Program-made: the position numbers and the translations under genes
The notes under the pieces: generated by a model
Told to the model about the DNA's origin: nothing
Databases searched by the model: none
What the model saw: only the letters and a program-made list of their open reading frames with translations
Assembly (NCBI GenBank): GCA_945910645.1
Contig: CAMDZB010000003.1
Location: 1 to 64,000 of the forward strand
Reading direction: 5' to 3'
Origin: an uncultured Spirochaetaceae bacterium
GTDB lineage: Bacteria > Spirochaetota > Spirochaetia > Sphaerochaetales > Sphaerochaetaceae
Length of the DNA: 64,000 nt
Shown: piece by piece, positions 3,262-48,895 of the stretch
Layout: each line of letters begins with the position of its first letter
Position numbering within the stretch: the first letter of the stretch is position 1

Positions 3262-4485
3262 GTGAAAAAAAAGTTTAACTTTGTTGCACTTTTTCTACTT
3301 GTAGTTCTGCTATTTTCATCGTGTCAGAGCGTGGTTAGTGGGACTCATGGGGAGGAATATAGCGCAATCACCTATTTAAGCGAATACTTTGGCGCAGGAT
3401 ATCAAGACAATACAATTCCTGTGACTATATCGTCCTTTAAGGATGAGCTTCAGAAGGTTAATCCAAACTATGACAGAAGCGGAAACAACATGATTGATGC
3501 AGCCCTTATTGCTGCAGGATACAAGGAGCTTCCCGGCACATACGACAAAAACAAGATTGCAGAGCGCACCACATGGTACTACATTCCAAACAAACTTAAG
3601 GGCGTGAGCGATGCATCCTATTACGCATTCCTTGATGCAAACCTTGGAACTGCAGAGATGCTAAAGAGAGGTGAAATCAATGCAAACGTTGCAAACGAGA
3701 TTATACTTCGTGTTGCAAACGCATTAGGATCAGGGCGCCGCTACGTGGGCTTTATAAGCGACAGCGACATTGCGGACAAGCTTAGAAGCACATATGATGG
3801 ATTTATCCTATTCGACGATGATGTGCTTGCAAACATCGGCTATTCCCTCATCAGAGAAGGTAAGAGCACAGGATACAACCTCAAAACCGACGCCTATGCA
3901 TCAAGGTTCCTCTCTGAATATTCGCTTACATACAGCCACGATAACATTGAACATGCCCTTCAGCTGATAGCACTGCTCAACAGCGAAAAGATCGATGCTC
4001 GCGTTGCGCTTGAGCCAAAAATATCCATCTATCAGTACCTCTTGGATTGGGGGCCGATCCCTGAGCCATCACGCCACTACAGAGTGGTTGAAAGCGATGG
4101 AATGTATCTTGTAAATGCTATTGAATTTGACCTTGTGCTTGAGTTCTCAAAGAAGGATGATAAGGAGCGTTTCAACTCAATTATCCTTAAAAACGCAAAG
4201 AAGAATGACACAAATCCTGAACTAATTGGACTTATCAAAGGATCATGGTGGCAGCCGCTCTACACAAGCAAAACAAAGATGAGAACTGGTGAGTTCTACT
4301 CAATCGTGAATAACCAGCTCTTCCATAACGGATATTCAATCAATCCATTCACCACAACGGATAAGACGATTGACTATACTCAGTATATGGAGAAGTATCC
4401 AAACGAGGTGCTTACAGCAGTACCACAAAACTTAACTGTGAACAAGGCGTTCTACAACTACCTTACAGGCAGTGATTATCAATAA
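3262..4485 (+). CDS. Predicted lipoprotein of unknown function
   Basis: Signal peptide with lipobox-like LLFSSCQS; no family recognised. Confidence 0.7.
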   Translation: MKKKFNFVALFLLVVLLFSSCQSVVSGTHGEEYSAITYLSEYFGAGYQDNTIPVTISSFKDELQKVNPNYDRSGNNMIDAALIAAGYKELPGTYDKNKIAERTTWYYIPNKLKGVSDASYYAFLDANLGTAEMLKRGEINANVANEIILRVANALGSGRRYVGFISDSDIADKLRSTYDGFILFDDDVLANIGYSLIREGKSTGYNLKTDAYASRFLSEYSLTYSHDNIEHALQLIALLNSEKIDARVALEPKISIYQYLLDWGPIPEPSRHYRVVESDGMYLVNAIEFDLVLEFSKKDDKERFNSIILKNAKKNDTNPELIGLIKGSWWQPLYTSKTKMRTGEFYSIVNNQLFHNGYSINPFTTTDKTIDYTQYMEKYPNEVLTAVPQNLTVNKAFYNYLTGSDYQ

Positions 4486-5492
4486 AATGATTTTACAACC
4501 TCAAGAAGGGCATCCTTTGCTCTTTTTGAGGTTTCTTTTAATACAATTTCACCTTTTTTGAATATAACAACATTATCTTTGCTTCCGCTGATTCCAACAT
4601 CAGCACTCGAGGCCTCACCTATTCCGTTCAACGGGCATCCCATGATGGCAATAGTAATTGGCTTTTTATGATTATATGCAATTCTATAAAGATCATCCTG
4701 AACCTCAGGAAGAAATTCACCTGTAAGGAAGGTTGCTCGGGAACACGACGGGCAGACTATTAAGTTCAAGTATGGCTCTCTTAACCCCATCACTCTGAGT
4801 AGCTCAACACCAGCAATCACCTCGTTTATTTCATCTGCTGCCATTGAGTAGCGTATTGTGTCGCCTATTCCATCCTTAAGAAGCTCTGAGAGCACATAGG
4901 TTGAGCGTACAGCACTTTGAATGCTTCCACCTGCCTCTGTAAGCCCTATGTGGATGGGGAAATCAAAGCGTGATGAGAGGTCCCTATTTAGCGCGAGTGT
5001 AGACTCAGGATCTGATGCCTTAAGGCTTAGAACTATATTTGTAAAGTTCATCCTCTCTGTAATCTCGAGGGTCTTTTTTATAAGATTAATGGCACTCTCG
5101 CCCCTTGTGCTCCCCTCATTTGTCCCGATACGCATGATTGCACCTCTATCCTTAGCGCACTTTATGATCTCTTCTGCATCCTTACTTGTTATAAGGCTTG
5201 GATTGATACGGACAGCATCGATCCCTGAATCTAGGGCAAAAAGTGCATTTTTAATATCTGCTTTTATGTCTATCACAAGTGGAACGGGCGAGTTCTTTAT
5301 AAAGGCTTTTAGCTCATCTTTATCGTAGGTGCCATCTATTGAGAATCGTACAATATCGGCGCCATGATATTTGAGCTTCTCAAGGTATTCATTATCATAA
5401 GCGTAGAAAGGACGCTCGAGCATTGTTTGAACAAGGATTGGAGATCCACCCCCGAGGGTGATGTTATTTGACTTTACAAGACGCGTTTTCAA
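4479..5492 (-). CDS. ispG: 4-hydroxy-3-methylbut-2-en-1-yl diphosphate synthase
   Basis: CPSCSR and MGCPLNGIGEASSADVGISG motifs. Confidence 0.93.
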   Translation of the reverse strand: MKTRLVKSNNITLGGGSPILVQTMLERPFYAYDNEYLEKLKYHGADIVRFSIDGTYDKDELKAFIKNSPVPLVIDIKADIKNALFALDSGIDAVRINPSLITSKDAEEIIKCAKDRGAIMRIGTNEGSTRGESAINLIKKTLEITERMNFTNIVLSLKASDPESTLALNRDLSSRFDFPIHIGLTEAGGSIQSAVRSTYVLSELLKDGIGDTIRYSMAADEINEVIAGVELLRVMGLREPYLNLIVCPSCSRATFLTGEFLPEVQDDLYRIAYNHKKPITIAIMGCPLNGIGEASSADVGISGSKDNVVIFKKGEIVLKETSKRAKDALLEVVKSFY

Positions 5493-8480: not shown

Positions 8481-8825
8481 GCGAGTTTGAGCTTGTTACT
8501 GGATGGCACCGCGAGTTTGAGCTTGTTACTGGATGGTACCGCGAGTTTGAGATGCGCGCGCAAAGCCTAAGTCGCAGGTTCCTGATGCCGAAGCGATTTT
8601 ACTTTTTGTAAATGAGCAAGGCTCAGGGTTCTAAGACGACGGATTTGCCCGCAGATCAAACGAGCCCCAAACGAAGGACATACCTTGCTGATAGGCCAAG
8701 TGGGGCGGGTGCAGTCTGACAAAGTTAGGCGCCCGAGATCAAACGAGCCCAGCGAGTTTACTTTTTGTAAATGAGCAAGGCTCAGGGTTCTAAGACGACG
8801 TAGATCGCCCGCATATCAAACGAGC
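8481..8825. repeat. Modular intergenic repeat cluster A (GCGAGTTTGA...TCAAACGAGC units, preceded by 30-bp tandem units)
   Basis: 30-bp period units at 8481 and 8511 leading into a 125-bp unit 8541-8665 that is near-identical to 9677-9801. Confidence 0.9.
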
Positions 8826-9412
8826 GTTTTAACCCAGGTGTTGACAAGATCAGAGGTGTTACCAAAATCAGCTGAGGTAAGATGAAGATTGTCTTTAGCG
8901 TTTGCATAGGCCTTAAGAGCATTAAACGCATTATCGCCTGAGCTTGATGCACTTGTTGAGAATGTGTAAATAGTTTTACCATCGAACTTGTTGTAGTGAT
9001 CAAGAAGTGTTTGGATGATTCTTGGCGCTGCTCCGTTCCAGATTGGGTAACCGATGATGACTGTGTCGTAGCTGTTAGCATCGATTGCTGTGTATGTTGA
9101 TGATGCGATTAGAGGACGTGCAGAATCGTCTTTTTGTTCAGTCTGTAAGCGTGATGTTGAGACCTTGTTATCTAAATCAGTGCTTATGTATGGTGTTTCA
9201 GGCTCAATTTTAACAATTGGTGCTGAAAGTTCGGTTGCGATGGCATTTGCAACCTTTTCTGTGTTTCCTGAATATGAGAAATATATAACGATTGGTTTTA
9301 TTGCCTTATCGGATGATGCGGAAGCTGAGTCTTTTTTTCCTGATGAGCATGATACAAATAGTACTGTAGCGAGTACAACGAGTACTGTAATTACTTTTGT
9401 TGCTTTTTTCAT
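8816..9412 (-). CDS. Flavodoxin-family lipoprotein
   Basis: Lipobox LFVSCSSG; flavodoxin YFSYSGNTEKVANAIA and GYPIWNGAAPRII. Confidence 0.88.
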   Translation of the reverse strand: MKKATKVITVLVVLATVLFVSCSSGKKDSASASSDKAIKPIVIYFSYSGNTEKVANAIATELSAPIVKIEPETPYISTDLDNKVSTSRLQTEQKDDSARPLIASSTYTAIDANSYDTVIIGYPIWNGAAPRIIQTLLDHYNKFDGKTIYTFSTSASSSGDNAFNALKAYANAKDNLHLTSADFGNTSDLVNTWVKTLV

Positions 9413-9484
9413 TGTTTTCTCCTTGGCTGTTATTTTACATTCTTTTATCTAAAAATACTACTAATGTTCTCCTACGAGCCCCTA

Positions 9485-9930
9485 GCGAGTTTGAGATTGT
9501 TACTGGATGGCACTGCGAGTTTGAGACTGTTCCTGGATGGCACTGCGAGTTTGATATTCGGGATGCATAACGCGAAAGCAAACCCGCCCCAAACGAAGGA
9601 CATACCTTTGTGGTAGGACAAGCGCCGAAGCCGCCAGCCTGACGACGTAGATCGCTCAAGATCAAACGAGCCCCTAGCGAGTTTGAGATGCGCGCGCAAA
9701 GCCTAAGTCGCAGGTTCCTGATGCCGATGCGAGTTTACTTTTTGTAAATGAGCACGGCTCAGGGTTCTAAGACGACGGATTTGCCCGCAGATCAAACGAG
9801 CGTTAGCGAGTTTAATATTGAGATGAGCTACTAGGAAGCCAGGCAAGGCTAGCGCAGGACATACCTTGCTGGTAGGCCAAGCGCCGAAGCCGCCAGCCTG
9901 ACGACGTAGATCGCTCAAGATTAAACGAGC
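9485..9930. repeat. Modular intergenic repeat cluster B, same family as cluster A
   Basis: Units begin GCGAGTTT at 9485, 9515, 9545, 9677 and others; several end TCAAACGAGC or variant; 9598-9671 and 9857-9930 are near-identical 74-bp copies. Confidence 0.9.
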
Positions 9931-9933
9931 TTA

Positions 9934-10812
9934 CTAGAAGTCGAATTCGTCCTCTGAAGCAATAACATCCCCACCACCGCTCGACTCTGAATCACCGTTG
10001 TCATCATCGTCAGATGAGAGGATGTCCATGTCGTCTTCGACAATTTCGATGTCATCGCTGTCGTCGATTACGAGGTCATCGCGTTTGAGCGCTTCGATGT
10101 CGCTGTCGTCGCCTTCCTGATAGTATAGAACGCGGGAACAGTATGGGCAGAACTTGATTTCATCGCCTTTGCGTACTGTGTTTACAAACTGAACTGGAAG
10201 CTCCATGTGGCATCCCTGGCATACTCTGCCTTTTACGGCAACGCTACCGCCGTTCTTGCTCTTGACGATGCGCTCGAACTTGAAGAGCAATGTTGGGTCG
10301 ATACCCTCTGAGTACTTATCTTTCTTTACTTTAATCTGCTCTCTCTCTTTTGTGAGAGCTGCAATGTCTGAGTTGATCTTTTTGCGATCCTCATCAACGC
10401 TTTCCTCAAGAGCCTGGAGTGTTTCCTTACTCTCTTCTACGTTCTGCTCTTCTGCAACAACCTTGCGCTTTGTCTCTTCCTTGAGGTTGTAGTAGTGATT
10501 TTCGGTGTTTTTTGCCTCTTTTAGATCCTGCTGGTGCGTTTCAAACTCACGTTGGCTGAGGTTTGAGCTACTCTTCTTCTCAAGCTCTGCTCTTGCGTTT
10601 TTAGCCTCAACATAGTCCTCCTCAAGGGATACAACGCGCTGTTTTAGATCCTCAAGGCGCTGTAGGGACTTTGCATACTGTTCTCTTTTGAGAGAAAGCA
10701 TTTCCTCACTGTCTGCAAGCTCTTTTGGAAGTGCCTCAATTTTCTTTTCTATTTCGTAATACTGAACCAATACCTTCTGTAGCATTGTCAACTTTTTTAA
10801 AATATCTTTCAT
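9934..10812 (-). CDS. Coiled-coil protein with C-terminal C4 zinc ribbon
   Basis: Long coiled coil followed by CQGCHMELP...CPYCSRVLYY and an acidic tail. Confidence 0.85.
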   Translation of the reverse strand: MKDILKKLTMLQKVLVQYYEIEKKIEALPKELADSEEMLSLKREQYAKSLQRLEDLKQRVVSLEEDYVEAKNARAELEKKSSSNLSQREFETHQQDLKEAKNTENHYYNLKEETKRKVVAEEQNVEESKETLQALEESVDEDRKKINSDIAALTKEREQIKVKKDKYSEGIDPTLLFKFERIVKSKNGGSVAVKGRVCQGCHMELPVQFVNTVRKGDEIKFCPYCSRVLYYQEGDDSDIEALKRDDLVIDDSDDIEIVEDDMDILSSDDDDNGDSESSGGGDVIASEDEFDF

Positions 10813-44506: not shown

Positions 44507-47173
44507 TTAAAGTTCTTTCACTATCGCTAAAAAATCATCCTTTGTATAACTTCCTTCAACAATTCTGTTTTTATACACCATGAAATACTTAAAATTGTTT
44601 CCCGCCTTTGATTCCCATAAACGACCAAGTTCAATTTTATCGGAAGCATCAAGATGGTCTCCTTTTGTTTCCAAGAGGATTATATTGCCGTTTTTTGTTT
44701 TTATAATGAAATCTGGATAATGATTAATAAAACCATTTATACAGAAATCTTTCTTTTCTCTGTTTCTTGTCCACCATTCAACATTGTCCATATTTGCAAC
44801 GGCATTGATAACTTCTAATTCAAATCCGTTTATTTGGTCTTCTTTGTTATAAAGTGACTTATCAATAGCAGGACAAGTTTTAAGAATTGGTTTCTCTAAT
44901 GGCAGTTTCCATTCACCCAAAGTCTTAATTTTATTTGTAGACAATTCAATTATAAAATTGTTTTTTACATATTCTTTTGAAAGCTGATTGATTTTATTTT
45001 TTATAGCCTGAGAATATGAATAATCATTGGAAGCGAGGTCTTCAAATTGAGCATCAGTAAAATCTTCAATAACTCTGTCGATATACTTCTTTATTTCTGC
45101 ATCCGCAATTGGATACATATTTCCGATGTTTTCAAACAATGTGCTTGCAAAGGCTTCTTTCATGGCAGGTCTTTGTTTTGGATCAGAAAGAAGTCTTAAA
45201 AGATGGTCTCTCTGACGGCCATCAACCTGAGAAAATGTTGGAGTATTATCTCTATTTGTTTTACTTAAATCGACTTTATAAATATTAGTTTTACTAAGTG
45301 TAAAATCAATATTTGTATCAGCCTTACCTAATTTAAATTCTTCAAGAAGAGTATTTTTATCAAATAAGACAACCTTTTCACTTCCACCAAAAAGGTCTCC
45401 CACATTCTCAATTGTGCCGAATTGTGGAAGTATCACAGATGAAGCTGAATCTTTAAATACATCATTTATTCTTGCTTTCATAACTTGATTCTCCATTTCA
45501 GTAGGAATATAAATATTTCCTTGTTGTTGATTTTCATCTAATTTTGAAGCTTCTTCGGAAAAGTTTTTGTCTTCCTCTGTTGCCCTTTCCATAATGCTAG
45601 AAACATTATCTGAAATACTTTGCATTTCAGGTGACACTGATTGACTATCTATATTTCCCTGATTAGATGTATCTGAAATAACAGAAACTCCAGATGGATT
45701 AGATTCCTCAATAATAAAATCAAAATCATCCCTTTTATCTGTTAGATCCAATTCTGGCTGAACTGATTTTGGAGTTGGGATTGAAGGTTGAACAAAGTCT
45801 GTTGGATTTGCAACTCTATAATCTTTATCAGTAAAGCCAGCCGCATTCAAACCTTTAACAATCTGATTCATCGTGTTTAAGAAATCATTTGAAGAAGTCA
45901 AAACATAACTTAAATTAAGTTCCGAAACAGAATGTCTTCTTGTGTAAGGCAATCGTAAAACACGACCTAAAATCTGTTCAACATCTACTGTAGAAGTCCT
46001 ATCAGCCAGACTTGCGAGAATATAAGCGAAAGGACAATCCCATCCTTCTTTTAATGCGTTTACAGTAATGATAAAACGAACTTTACATTCAGAATCAGCT
46101 AAATTGATTCCATCAAGTTCATTTTTATCTGATGTCTTAATTTTTATCTGCTCTTCTGGAATTCCTTTTTTAAGGAGAATTTGCTTTATCTTATCATAAG
46201 TGGTATTTTCTTCACCTTTTTTTGGTTGAGCCTGGAACAAAACTATAGGCCGAATATACGAATCTGTTCCCGCTTTGTAAGAAGCATCCGCCTTAACTTC
46301 TAACTGTTTCTGCAAATATATAGCCGTGTTGATTACGCTATGTTTATCATTCTGATTAGAAACGATAACGGGAAGCTTAATCATATTTGCTTTTTTTAAT
46401 TCAATTGCAGGAACAAAAGAAAGAATGTTACTGTTTTTTCTTGGTGTAGCAGTTAAGTCTAAAACAAGAGAAGGATTTAAATCATTAAGCATCTTTACTG
46501 AAAGCTCAGAAGTTGCATTGTGACTTTCATCAACAATTACTACGGGATTTAAAGATTGAAGTATTCTCATTACAGAAATTTCTTCATCCTCTAACTGTTT
46601 ATCAATCATTGATGAAAGTTTCTGCAAACTACCATTATCCTGATAAACTTTTCTACCTTCTTTATTTGTAGCCCTAAAACTGTCAAAACTCATTACAAAG
46701 ATGCTCAAGTTTTGACTTACAGATTCTATTGAAATTCCTGCACCATTTAGAAGTTCCATTTTATTATAAACTTCAACCTTGCCTGAAAAATCAATATCTA
46801 TTTTCTGTCTATAAGGGTGATCTGTATTTTTTAAATTATTTAATGTCTGCTTCAAAATTGCATCCGAAGGAACAAGCCATACTACAGATCTTTTCTTTTC
46901 CTTTCCAAAGTGATCAAAAATAACCTTGAGAGAAGAACAAGCTATAAATGTTTTACCACCTGCAGTCGGCACTTTCATACAAACATGAGGGCATCCCTTT
47001 ACAGAATTATCATACGGTTCTATTGCTTCACCCAATGTAGGAGTCAATGGTGTTCTGTCATGGCATTCCCAGAATTCTGTATATGAATCTTTAATATTCT
47101 TTTTTTCTTGAAGAATGTCTAAAAACCTAGAAAGGTCTTGTAAAACAACTGACTGATAAGATTTTAATTCCAT
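44507..47173 (-). CDS. Type III restriction enzyme Res subunit
   Basis: VPTAGGKTFIA Walker A, VIVDESHNA, ILGRVLRLP, C-terminal YPDFIIKTKNGNIILLETKG nuclease motif. Confidence 0.93.
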   Translation of the reverse strand: MELKSYQSVVLQDLSRFLDILQEKKNIKDSYTEFWECHDRTPLTPTLGEAIEPYDNSVKGCPHVCMKVPTAGGKTFIACSSLKVIFDHFGKEKKRSVVWLVPSDAILKQTLNNLKNTDHPYRQKIDIDFSGKVEVYNKMELLNGAGISIESVSQNLSIFVMSFDSFRATNKEGRKVYQDNGSLQKLSSMIDKQLEDEEISVMRILQSLNPVVIVDESHNATSELSVKMLNDLNPSLVLDLTATPRKNSNILSFVPAIELKKANMIKLPVIVSNQNDKHSVINTAIYLQKQLEVKADASYKAGTDSYIRPIVLFQAQPKKGEENTTYDKIKQILLKKGIPEEQIKIKTSDKNELDGINLADSECKVRFIITVNALKEGWDCPFAYILASLADRTSTVDVEQILGRVLRLPYTRRHSVSELNLSYVLTSSNDFLNTMNQIVKGLNAAGFTDKDYRVANPTDFVQPSIPTPKSVQPELDLTDKRDDFDFIIEESNPSGVSVISDTSNQGNIDSQSVSPEMQSISDNVSSIMERATEEDKNFSEEASKLDENQQQGNIYIPTEMENQVMKARINDVFKDSASSVILPQFGTIENVGDLFGGSEKVVLFDKNTLLEEFKLGKADTNIDFTLSKTNIYKVDLSKTNRDNTPTFSQVDGRQRDHLLRLLSDPKQRPAMKEAFASTLFENIGNMYPIADAEIKKYIDRVIEDFTDAQFEDLASNDYSYSQAIKNKINQLSKEYVKNNFIIELSTNKIKTLGEWKLPLEKPILKTCPAIDKSLYNKEDQINGFELEVINAVANMDNVEWWTRNREKKDFCINGFINHYPDFIIKTKNGNIILLETKGDHLDASDKIELGRLWESKAGNNFKYFMVYKNRIVEGSYTKDDFLAIVKEL

Positions 47174-47185
47174 AACTTCCCTGCC

Positions 47186-48895
47186 CTAAAACTTCTGTAT
47201 TTCTCTTGGAATCTTTTTAAAAATAATATTATGTTCTTTTAAGAATGAATCTGGAAGACGACAAACATCAGCATAAATAATATATTGTTCTGCTTTGGTT
47301 TTCATTGTGCTTAAAAAATCATAGTTCAAGCAAGTTTCTTCATTCTTCTTGTAATAAAACCAATATCCCACTTCATGATTTTTTCCTAGGAAATATTCGT
47401 TATCGGATTTTTGACTTCCAAACAATTTTGAGTGAGTTTCTGTAAACCAGATATATTCACGAATATTTGAAACATCTACTTTTTCATTTAAAAGACCATC
47501 TACAAGCAAAGGCTCTCCAAGTTCATAGAAATTAAAATCGCCCGAAAGGCCCTCGACCTTATTTTTTTCTTTACCATAACCCTTTATTACTCGTTTTACT
47601 CTTTCTGCAGTAATTGATTCAGCATAATCATTTAACTCAATAAGAATAAATTTCCTATTCCCTCTATCCAACTTATTTAAATTAAGGAGAGCATGAGCTG
47701 TTGTACCAGAACCCGCAAAACTATCAAGTACAACCATATTCTTATCATTAAAAAGGGTCAGAATAAGATTTATTAAGCCAACATTCTTCGGATTTTCAAA
47801 TGGTATCTTTACTGTTCCAAATATGTCTTTCAATTCTTGACCTGCAGATGTTGTTTTTACATCTAACTTATAATTGACTTCTCTATCATTCACAACGGCC
47901 AAATATTCTCGATTTGATACAATACTTTTTATTCGGATTGATGTATTAAAATTTTTTTCATATATTTTTTGATTTTTAAAAACAAGAGCTTTATTATTAA
48001 ATAGTTCTAGTAATTTTTTTGAAGTATATGTATTTTCAACAAAATTATCCTCATAAAAGGAAATAAATCTTTCAAAACCTTTGTTGATTAAATCTTGGTT
48101 TATCGCATCTATTTTATTTTCTTTTTTTATTTTTAAAGATTGAGTTTCTTTATTATAATAAACAGAATAATGTTTATCTGTTGAAAAATCAGTAATTATT
48201 TCGTTAAAATCATTTTCACCAACTAGAACTCTTTTCCCACTATTATGAACATATCTACCAGTTTCTTCATCAATAACTAAATCTTTACGGTTTTTGGGAA
48301 TATTTTCTTCAAAATATAAATTTTCTTTTTCTTTAGCATATATCAATAAATATTCACTACTAACTGATATAAAATTCGAGTTTTTTCTACCTTTCGGATT
48401 ATTCTCTACAGAGAGATTCCCTATAAAATTTTCAGACCCAAAGATTTCATCACAAATCAATTTTAAATTTGTATGCTCATTATCATCAATGCTTATAAAA
48501 ATAGCACCATCTTCACTCAAAAGCTTCTGCAAAAGCTTTAGTCTTGGGTACATCATGCAAAGCCATTTGTCATGTCTTGTTAAATCTTCACCTTCCTGAC
48601 CTACAACTTCGCCAAGCCATTTTTTTATACGAGGATCATTTACATTATCATTATAAACCCACTTTTCTTTTCCGGTATTGTACGGAGGATCAATGTAAAT
48701 GCACTTTATTTTTCCTTCATATTCAGGGAGAAGAGCTTTTAAAGCTTCAAGATTATCCCCATGAATAATTTTATTTTCAGAATCCTGAGCTTTACCATCA
48801 GCCGAAAAAGTATACTGTTTATTTAAGACCTTAAAAGGAACATCAAGATGATGATTAACAACTTTCTTTTTTCCAATCCAATCAAGTGTAGGCAT
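47186..48895 (-). CDS. Type III adenine-specific DNA methyltransferase Mod subunit
   Basis: IYIDPPYNTGKEKWVYNDN, DGAIFISIDDNE, VVLDSFAGSGTTAHALL. Confidence 0.94.
   Translation of the reverse strand: MPTLDWIGKKKVVNHHLDVPFKVLNKQYTFSADGKAQDSENKIIHGDNLEALKALLPEYEGKIKCIYIDPPYNTGKEKWVYNDNVNDPRIKKWLGEVVGQEGEDLTRHDKWLCMMYPRLKLLQKLLSEDGAIFISIDDNEHTNLKLICDEIFGSENFIGNLSVENNPKGRKNSNFISVSSEYLLIYAKEKENLYFEENIPKNRKDLVIDEETGRYVHNSGKRVLVGENDFNEIITDFSTDKHYSVYYNKETQSLKIKKENKIDAINQDLINKGFERFISFYEDNFVENTYTSKKLLELFNNKALVFKNQKIYEKNFNTSIRIKSIVSNREYLAVVNDREVNYKLDVKTTSAGQELKDIFGTVKIPFENPKNVGLINLILTLFNDKNMVVLDSFAGSGTTAHALLNLNKLDRGNRKFILIELNDYAESITAERVKRVIKGYGKEKNKVEGLSGDFNFYELGEPLLVDGLLNEKVDVSNIREYIWFTETHSKLFGSQKSDNEYFLGKNHEVGYWFYYKKNEETCLNYDFLSTMKTKAEQYIIYADVCRLPDSFLKEHNIIFKKIPREIQKF

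Follow-up and report, generated by a model that had tools for sequence, protein, structure and literature searches.

Rod-forming mosaic repeats at gene 3′ ends in two related Sphaerochaetaceae genomes, a probable non-autonomous family

Two repeat clusters on either side of a flavodoxin gene, for which an earlier sequence-only reading of this DNA had suggested recombination or non-autonomous mobility, belong to a dispersed, mosaic and probably non-autonomous repeat family with copies throughout the genome. We read the family as lineage-specific and MITE/ERIC-like, with a folded strand that is probably under selection (probability about 0.55); on this reading the units would have moved, and their fold would be what is recognised. 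The units are dispersed, fixed in length and co-varying, dock on gene ends in one orientation, have a sister family in a congener, and occupy gene ends whose orthologs in the other species are unoccupied. The folding of the whole unit as one co-varying rod, the one-orientation docking on stop codons and the parallel family in the sister species had all escaped the sequence-only reading.

The stretch analysed (the window, 64,000 nucleotides) comes from contig C3 of a 33-contig, 95.7% complete, 1.15-Mb assembly (G000) that is not closed. Genes are simple ORF calls, and each genome was read in part, through searches and selected stretches. The two clusters lie at 8481-8825 and 9485-9930 and are made up as follows.

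8481-8510, forward strand: first copy of the 30-bp unit U30 (GCGAGTTTGAGCTTGTTACTGGATGGCACC), a repeat family with a spacing of 30
8511-8540, forward strand: second copy of U30
8541-8665, forward strand: full-length unit of type A, a 125-nt rod (covariance model 109.6 bits; fold z -4.3)
8666-8748, forward strand: type B 3′ fragment without about 34-42 nt of the 5′ end (the alignment to B covers 8657-8748)
8752-8825, forward strand: type A 3′ fragment (positions 53-125), its last 10 bp holding the stop codon of the flavodoxin gene
8816-9412, reverse strand: flavodoxin-fold lipoprotein gene (Flavodoxin_4), its last codons CTC GTT TGA (Leu-Val-stop) lying in the repeat end 8816-8825
9485-9514, forward strand: copy 1 of U30 in the second cluster
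9515-9544, forward strand: copy 2 of U30 in the second cluster
9545-9671, forward strand: full-length chimera with a type B 5′ part and a type C 3′ part, its rod broken (z -1.0)
9677-9801, forward strand: full-length unit of type A, a 125-nt rod (z -6.4)
9806-9930, forward strand: full-length unit of type C, a 125-nt rod with a GTTTAA/TTAAAC outer stem
9934-10812, reverse strand: zinc-ribbon protein gene (Zn_ribbon_9; below the cut-off for NCBIfam CdsZ), its stop codon 3 bp from the repeat end

Measurement bears out the cluster coordinates, module lengths and difference counts of the sequence-only reading. The segments 8541-8665 and 9677-9801, each of 125 bp, differ at 3 positions (98% identity); 9598-9671 and 9857-9930, each of 74 bp, differ at 4 and belong to a longer 78-bp pair with 94% identity. 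The 74-bp stretch loses its standing as a separate module, however, being the 3′ part of a 125-127-bp unit and common to the C-type unit (9806-9930) and the B/C chimera (9545-9671). The unit ends form the imperfect inverted pair that had been described, GCGAGTTTGA/TCAAACGAGC, with two fixed mismatches. All exact matches to these ends in the window (7 and 5, respectively) fall inside the two clusters; with one mismatch allowed, GCGAGTTTGA has 13 matches in the window against 4.7 expected, a number reached by 0 of 100 shuffles.

The modules are more than a local duplication. About 29 full-length units (124-128 bp), grouped into 21 clusters, are spread over at least 12 contigs of the 1.15-Mb genome, which also holds fragments and the tandem 30-bp unit. 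Trained on 27 full units, a covariance model gives 39 matches, 29 of which are full-length and above 65 bits; counting the window's two, the 125-bp module by itself has 9 copies over its whole length at 86-100% identity, and many partial copies besides. Genome counts exceed those of the reversed pattern both for ATCAAACGAGC (22 versus 0) and for GCGAGTTTGA (31 versus 5). The locus lies inside neither an annotated IS nor a structural RNA: the Rfam matches are the neighbouring tRNA and two weak ones that fall short of the gathering score, all outside the units, and the genes scanned beside clusters are housekeeping and other cellular genes with no IS among them. Exact core patterns have 0 matches in viral contigs. 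At least 113 stretches from unrelated taxa match the degenerate ends; that pattern is too loose, and these chance matches were not used. Another palindromic repeat, GAAATCACTGTGTCCA...TGGACACTGATTTCA, is 128 bp long and lies beside or inside rod clusters in copies that are 98-100% identical (L098 3133-3260, 3350-3477 and 3600-3727; L084 4015-4142).

Full units fall into interior types labelled A, P, B, E, F and C, all of which align end to end, and their length stays at 124-128 in 27 units despite the different interiors. A cluster typically begins with one or two copies of U30, which has its first 10-13 nt in common with full units, and continues with full units and then 3′ fragments, the units running head-to-tail in a single orientation within each own-genome cluster. 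Many 3′ fragments start just ahead of the apical loop, at about position 35-53, and about 15 fragments retain the 3′ part while about 5 retain the 5′ part alone (U30 excluded). Copying of the units by a reverse transcriptase would account for such 3′-intact, 5′-truncated fragments. We regard this as very improbable, given that three congeneric genomes have no match to RVT_1 (the control was positive in 3 of 14 genomes) and that breakpoints fall at short stretches where unit ends resemble internal sequence (GCGAGTTT/GCGATTTT and CAAACGAGCCCC/CAAACCCGCCCC), which fits recombination. Rfam likewise gives no group II intron match at the locus.

The GCGAG...CGAGC strand of each unit, the chimera 9545-9671 excepted, folds into one end-to-end rod. 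Among 27 units, 92.7% of cells hold standard pairs, compared with 71.3 ± 1.3% after shuffling and 21-42% when the partners are slid. RNAalifold predicts 25 pairs, 16 of them with double compensatory changes, and the covariation score is 0.556 against 0.212 for shuffled alignments and at most 0.121 with partners slid by 1-3 columns. The outer stem exists in matched versions (GTTTGA/TCAAAC, GTTGAA/TTCAAC and GTTTAA/TTAAAC) whose outermost pair is G-C or A-T. Near the base, a tandem GA/GA mismatch (CGAG facing CGAG) hardly changes while the stem inside it co-varies; purine-rich internal loops interrupt the rod in several places, and its apical loop is UUUNU. Individual window units fold with z from -3.6 to -6.4; the B/C chimera, at z -1.0, no longer forms the rod. 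The minimum-energy rods are sensitive to the choice of folding model. The structured strand is stabler than its complement in 23 of 27 own units and in 10 of 13 units of the sister species. Counted within types, since the all-type count is blurred by between-type alignment, the non-Watson-Crick cells comprise 12 G-T and 4 A-C. The strand preference is modest to moderate.

Compensatory pairing could also have arisen with no selection on the fold. Long quasi-palindromes are corrected by intrastrand template switching, and neutral palindromes that spread by recombination and replication slippage could have kept their arms complementary in this way, a scenario with which the chimeras and the breakpoints near the hairpin tip agree. 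Template switching should nevertheless erase mismatches, yet every type keeps the tandem GA and several internal loops at the same places, as the sister species does in part, and unit length holds at 123-128. This is a serious rival to the mobile-repeat reading, and we consider it improbable.

The family is confined to two species among the genomes searched. Across 139 genomes of the taxonomic family, the own genome included, the covariance model matches one other genome, that of the congener G001. There the arms are AATCCTTGAA/TTCAAGGATT, with 41 matches to AATCCTTGAA against 0 in the control, and the rods measure 123 nt, or 127 nt when counted from an outer AATCC...GGATT pair (range 123-127 nt). 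The apical domain is recognisably common to both species (CAAGCGAAGATTGTACTTTGTGTACTATCAAG in G001 and CAAACGAAGGACATACCTTTGTGGTAGGCCAAG in the own genome), with the same UUUGU apical loop in G001. A joint model gives 8 good matches in each of the two genomes, reaching 101 bits in G001; under strict filters, the other 393 of the 395 class genomes sampled have no match to it. The G001 family is homologous to the own family, with largely diverged sequence. A third congener, G002, was rejected as a carrier: it has 32 matches to AATCCTTGAA, but the 10 loci inspected show no rods. Separately, the two species have two proteins at 98-99% identity (L279 1-1116 versus L095 4980-6365; L286 734-1483 versus L305 1940-2830), compared with about 55-85% for most compared orthologs, which points to recent gene exchange.

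Copies are placed one-sidedly with respect to gene ends. In 16 of 21 own clusters the structured strand points its 3′ end at a stop codon, from a distance of 12 bp or less in 10, whereas a stop lies opposite its 5′ end in 8 of 19 and as close as 12 bp only once, these docking and orientation statistics having been computed after the pattern was seen. In 8 of 13 G001 clusters, the distance from an end to a stop codon is at most 13 bp. Docking could partly reflect selection against other insertions; purifying selection alone, however, would keep both unit ends equally off coding sequence and so does not predict one-sidedness.

Orthologous gene ends differ in occupancy. The own MATE gene ends in ...NYKRLV-stop, with LV-stop supplied by the unit, while the sister gene ends in ...SYKKIKKMHSYKPA-stop (...KMHSYKPA-stop). 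Conversely, the sister rnhB ends in ...FINP-stop, with NP-stop supplied by the unit, and its own-genome counterpart in ...FKID-stop. A sister unit sits exactly at the TAA of a lipoprotein gene whose own ortholog has none, and the zinc-ribbon gene at 9934 has an own unit 3 bp behind its stop and a sister ortholog with no unit. Judged from these alignments, species-specific insertions appear to replace the last codons or to sit exactly at the stop, and the occupied and unoccupied ends indicate that units arrived separately in the two species. The orthologous flanks, at about 65% amino-acid identity, are too diverged for base-by-base reconstruction of empty sites.

The same position at gene ends would suit a host RNA element in which units act in transcripts as terminators, 3′-end stabilisers or processing sites, the fold being preserved for that role and any mobility being past or incidental. 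The strong RNA-type co-variation is in keeping with this, and effects on co-transcribed mRNA are reported for ERIC, NEMIS and Ype/Efa repeats (PMC2229807, PMC1590033). One diverged copy, 61.5 bits (G000 C15:24913-25039; L236/L305), lies 1-3 bp behind a stop and has gained an extended T-run after the stem in the gene-sense strand; terminator-like in this respect, it has possibly been taken over as a transcription terminator. Against such a role, most clusters have the better-folding strand, the one with the invariant GA/GA motif, running antisense to the gene beside them. Units are carried by only about 20 genes in roughly 1,000, and where orthologs are comparable the two species have no sites in common. 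A terminator scan of the clusters is near chance, with 4 found and 2.0 expected. Host RNA function is a serious rival as well, and we hold it to be unlikely. Several other own clusters start directly after a terminator T-run.

On the favoured reading, a MITE/ERIC-like family with a selected fold, a full unit of about 125 bp would fold end to end on its GCGAG...CGAGC strand into one rod. Spreading in a single orientation, units would have come to lie at gene 3′ ends, where the folding strand meets the neighbour's stop codon with its own 3′ end and sometimes supplies it. The machinery that copies or inserts them may recognise the folded single strand, as DNA or as RNA; only units that keep the fold would then multiply while the sequence drifts, and recombination inside clusters would yield chimeras and 5′-truncated fragments. 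Recognition of a folded strand would explain the conserved fold and length under sequence drift, the one-sided docking and the recombinants without the fold. Fold, length and docking together point to such recognition, and the two genomes define where the enzyme can be sought. The movement of MITE-like palindromes in bacteria, ERIC among them, has yet to be explained, and a 2007 review found mobilisation by transposases to be without experimental support (PMC2229807). A compensatory fold in two species, a fixed length and one-sided docking with occupied and unoccupied ends make the question of mobility testable.

The search for a mobilising factor agrees with the earlier statement that no transposase is nearby, there being none among the 36 window proteins scanned. 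Comparison of the flanks of 27 own and 13 sister units gives matches of 0-3 nt and no consistent target-site duplication, with clustering blurring the unit ends; TA precedes 9 of 27 units and follows 1 of 27. A third tyrosine recombinase, present in both species and not seen in G002, was rejected as mobiliser: it adjoins an invertible methyltransferase promoter and is better explained as the invertase of that switch. A bolder proposal, which we think rather unlikely, is a novel mobile system in which a folded single-stranded rod of a fixed length of about 125 nt (DNA or RNA) would insert in one orientation at gene ends with no target duplication, through an enzyme other than an integron integrase, a RAYT or a known reverse transcriptase.

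In an integron-like system, the units would be folded recombination sites of attC type that close gene cassettes at their 3′ ends. Vibrio attC repeats are similar to them in length. Units sit at stop codons, the order gene-unit-gene-unit occurs in the window and at two other loci, and, as in attC, the fold of one strand is conserved above its sequence. The attC boxes read RYYYAAC...GTTRRRY, whereas the unit ends are GTTTGA...TCAAAC on both strands, the opposite arrangement. The own genome has no integron integrase (TIGR02249) above the cut-off, only Xer/phage-type recombinases below it. Cassettes in which gene and unit move together were also rejected, since the resident orthologs rnhB, MATE and zinc ribbon acquire units in place. 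A further likeness to attC is that the folded strand is antisense to the gene; only the bottom strand of attC is reported to recombine (PMC2727003). The missing integrase and the box test largely refute this reading, which we consider extremely unlikely.

The label MITE/REP/BIME-like given by the sequence-only reading holds in part. MITE size, terminal inverted ends and dispersal stand, with neither TA nor any other target-site duplication, while the REP/BIME part finds no support. The units are palindromic, extragenic and mosaic, as REP/BIME repeats moved by a RAYT (Y1 transposase) would be. REPs are several times shorter than these units, however, and form short palindromes in alternating orientation; here the units are about 125 bp and head-to-tail, in one orientation per own-genome cluster. 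Y1_Tnp has no match in the own genome or its two congeners (control positive in 6 of 14 genomes), and we give a RAYT-driven origin almost no credence.

Like MITEs of the DDE-transposase type, the units are short, non-coding, dispersed copies with terminal inverted repeats; unlike such MITEs, they have no target-site duplication. Bacterial MITEs measure 100-200 bp and form long, stable stem loops, and the majority carry TA ends and duplications (PMC2229807). Correia/NEMIS and RUP, also non-autonomous hairpins of 100-200 bp with terminal inverted ends (PMC2229807), have TA ends and target duplications and, for RUP, a proposed IS630 partner; none of these was identified here. The 127-bp enterobacterial repeats ERIC (IRU, RU-1) are close in size and in forming one long imperfect hairpin; they too are intergenic with some 3′-end insertions, and some of those alter the last codons or the stop codon (PMC2759123). 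The present units differ in having no TA ends or TA target duplication, in their mosaic clusters and in their strong orientation to stop codons. We know of no sequence similarity between ERIC and these units. The YPAL/Ype and Efa repeats of Yersinia and Enterococcus are likewise stem-loops, and Ype and Efa lie preferentially near gene 3′ ends (PMC1590033); going by their descriptions, the two-species co-varying rod and the one-sided docking set the present family apart. The BOX elements of Streptococcus pneumoniae are modular, with a repeated short inner unit, whereas here the 30-bp unit lies upstream of complete rods and has only its first 10-13 nt in common with them. With no TA features and no named family matched, the repeats belong to no named family; the best reading is a MITE/ERIC-like family that differs from the named ones by oriented stop-codon docking, mosaic units and no target-site duplication.

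Four further observations concern the surroundings of the repeats and the methyltransferase genes. A tyrosine recombinase gene, a 146-bp segment and the start of a type III DNA methyltransferase-like gene (DPPYNTG motif) follow one another at L314 (G000:C11:30000-40539) 3919-5420 and L313 (G001:C63) 417-562. The segment has inverted ends of about 20 bp and a promoter-like TATAAT, is inverted in one species relative to the other, and is probably a phase-variable promoter; the 2.1-kb block around it has 96% identity between the two species, against about 65% protein identity for their orthologs. Within the window, adjacent genes with ResIII and N6_N4-methylase domains (44507-48895) are consistent with a type III restriction-modification pair. 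One rod cluster (L102, G000:C17, 13-236) stops 18 bp short of a 5S rRNA gene (255-370) at a contig end and may therefore sit inside an rRNA operon. Finally, polytopic membrane proteins look over-represented among unit-bearing genes: at least 4 TM-like stretches occur in 7 of 16 genes at the 3′ ends of own clusters and in 22 of 197 background ORFs, a difference noticed afterwards.
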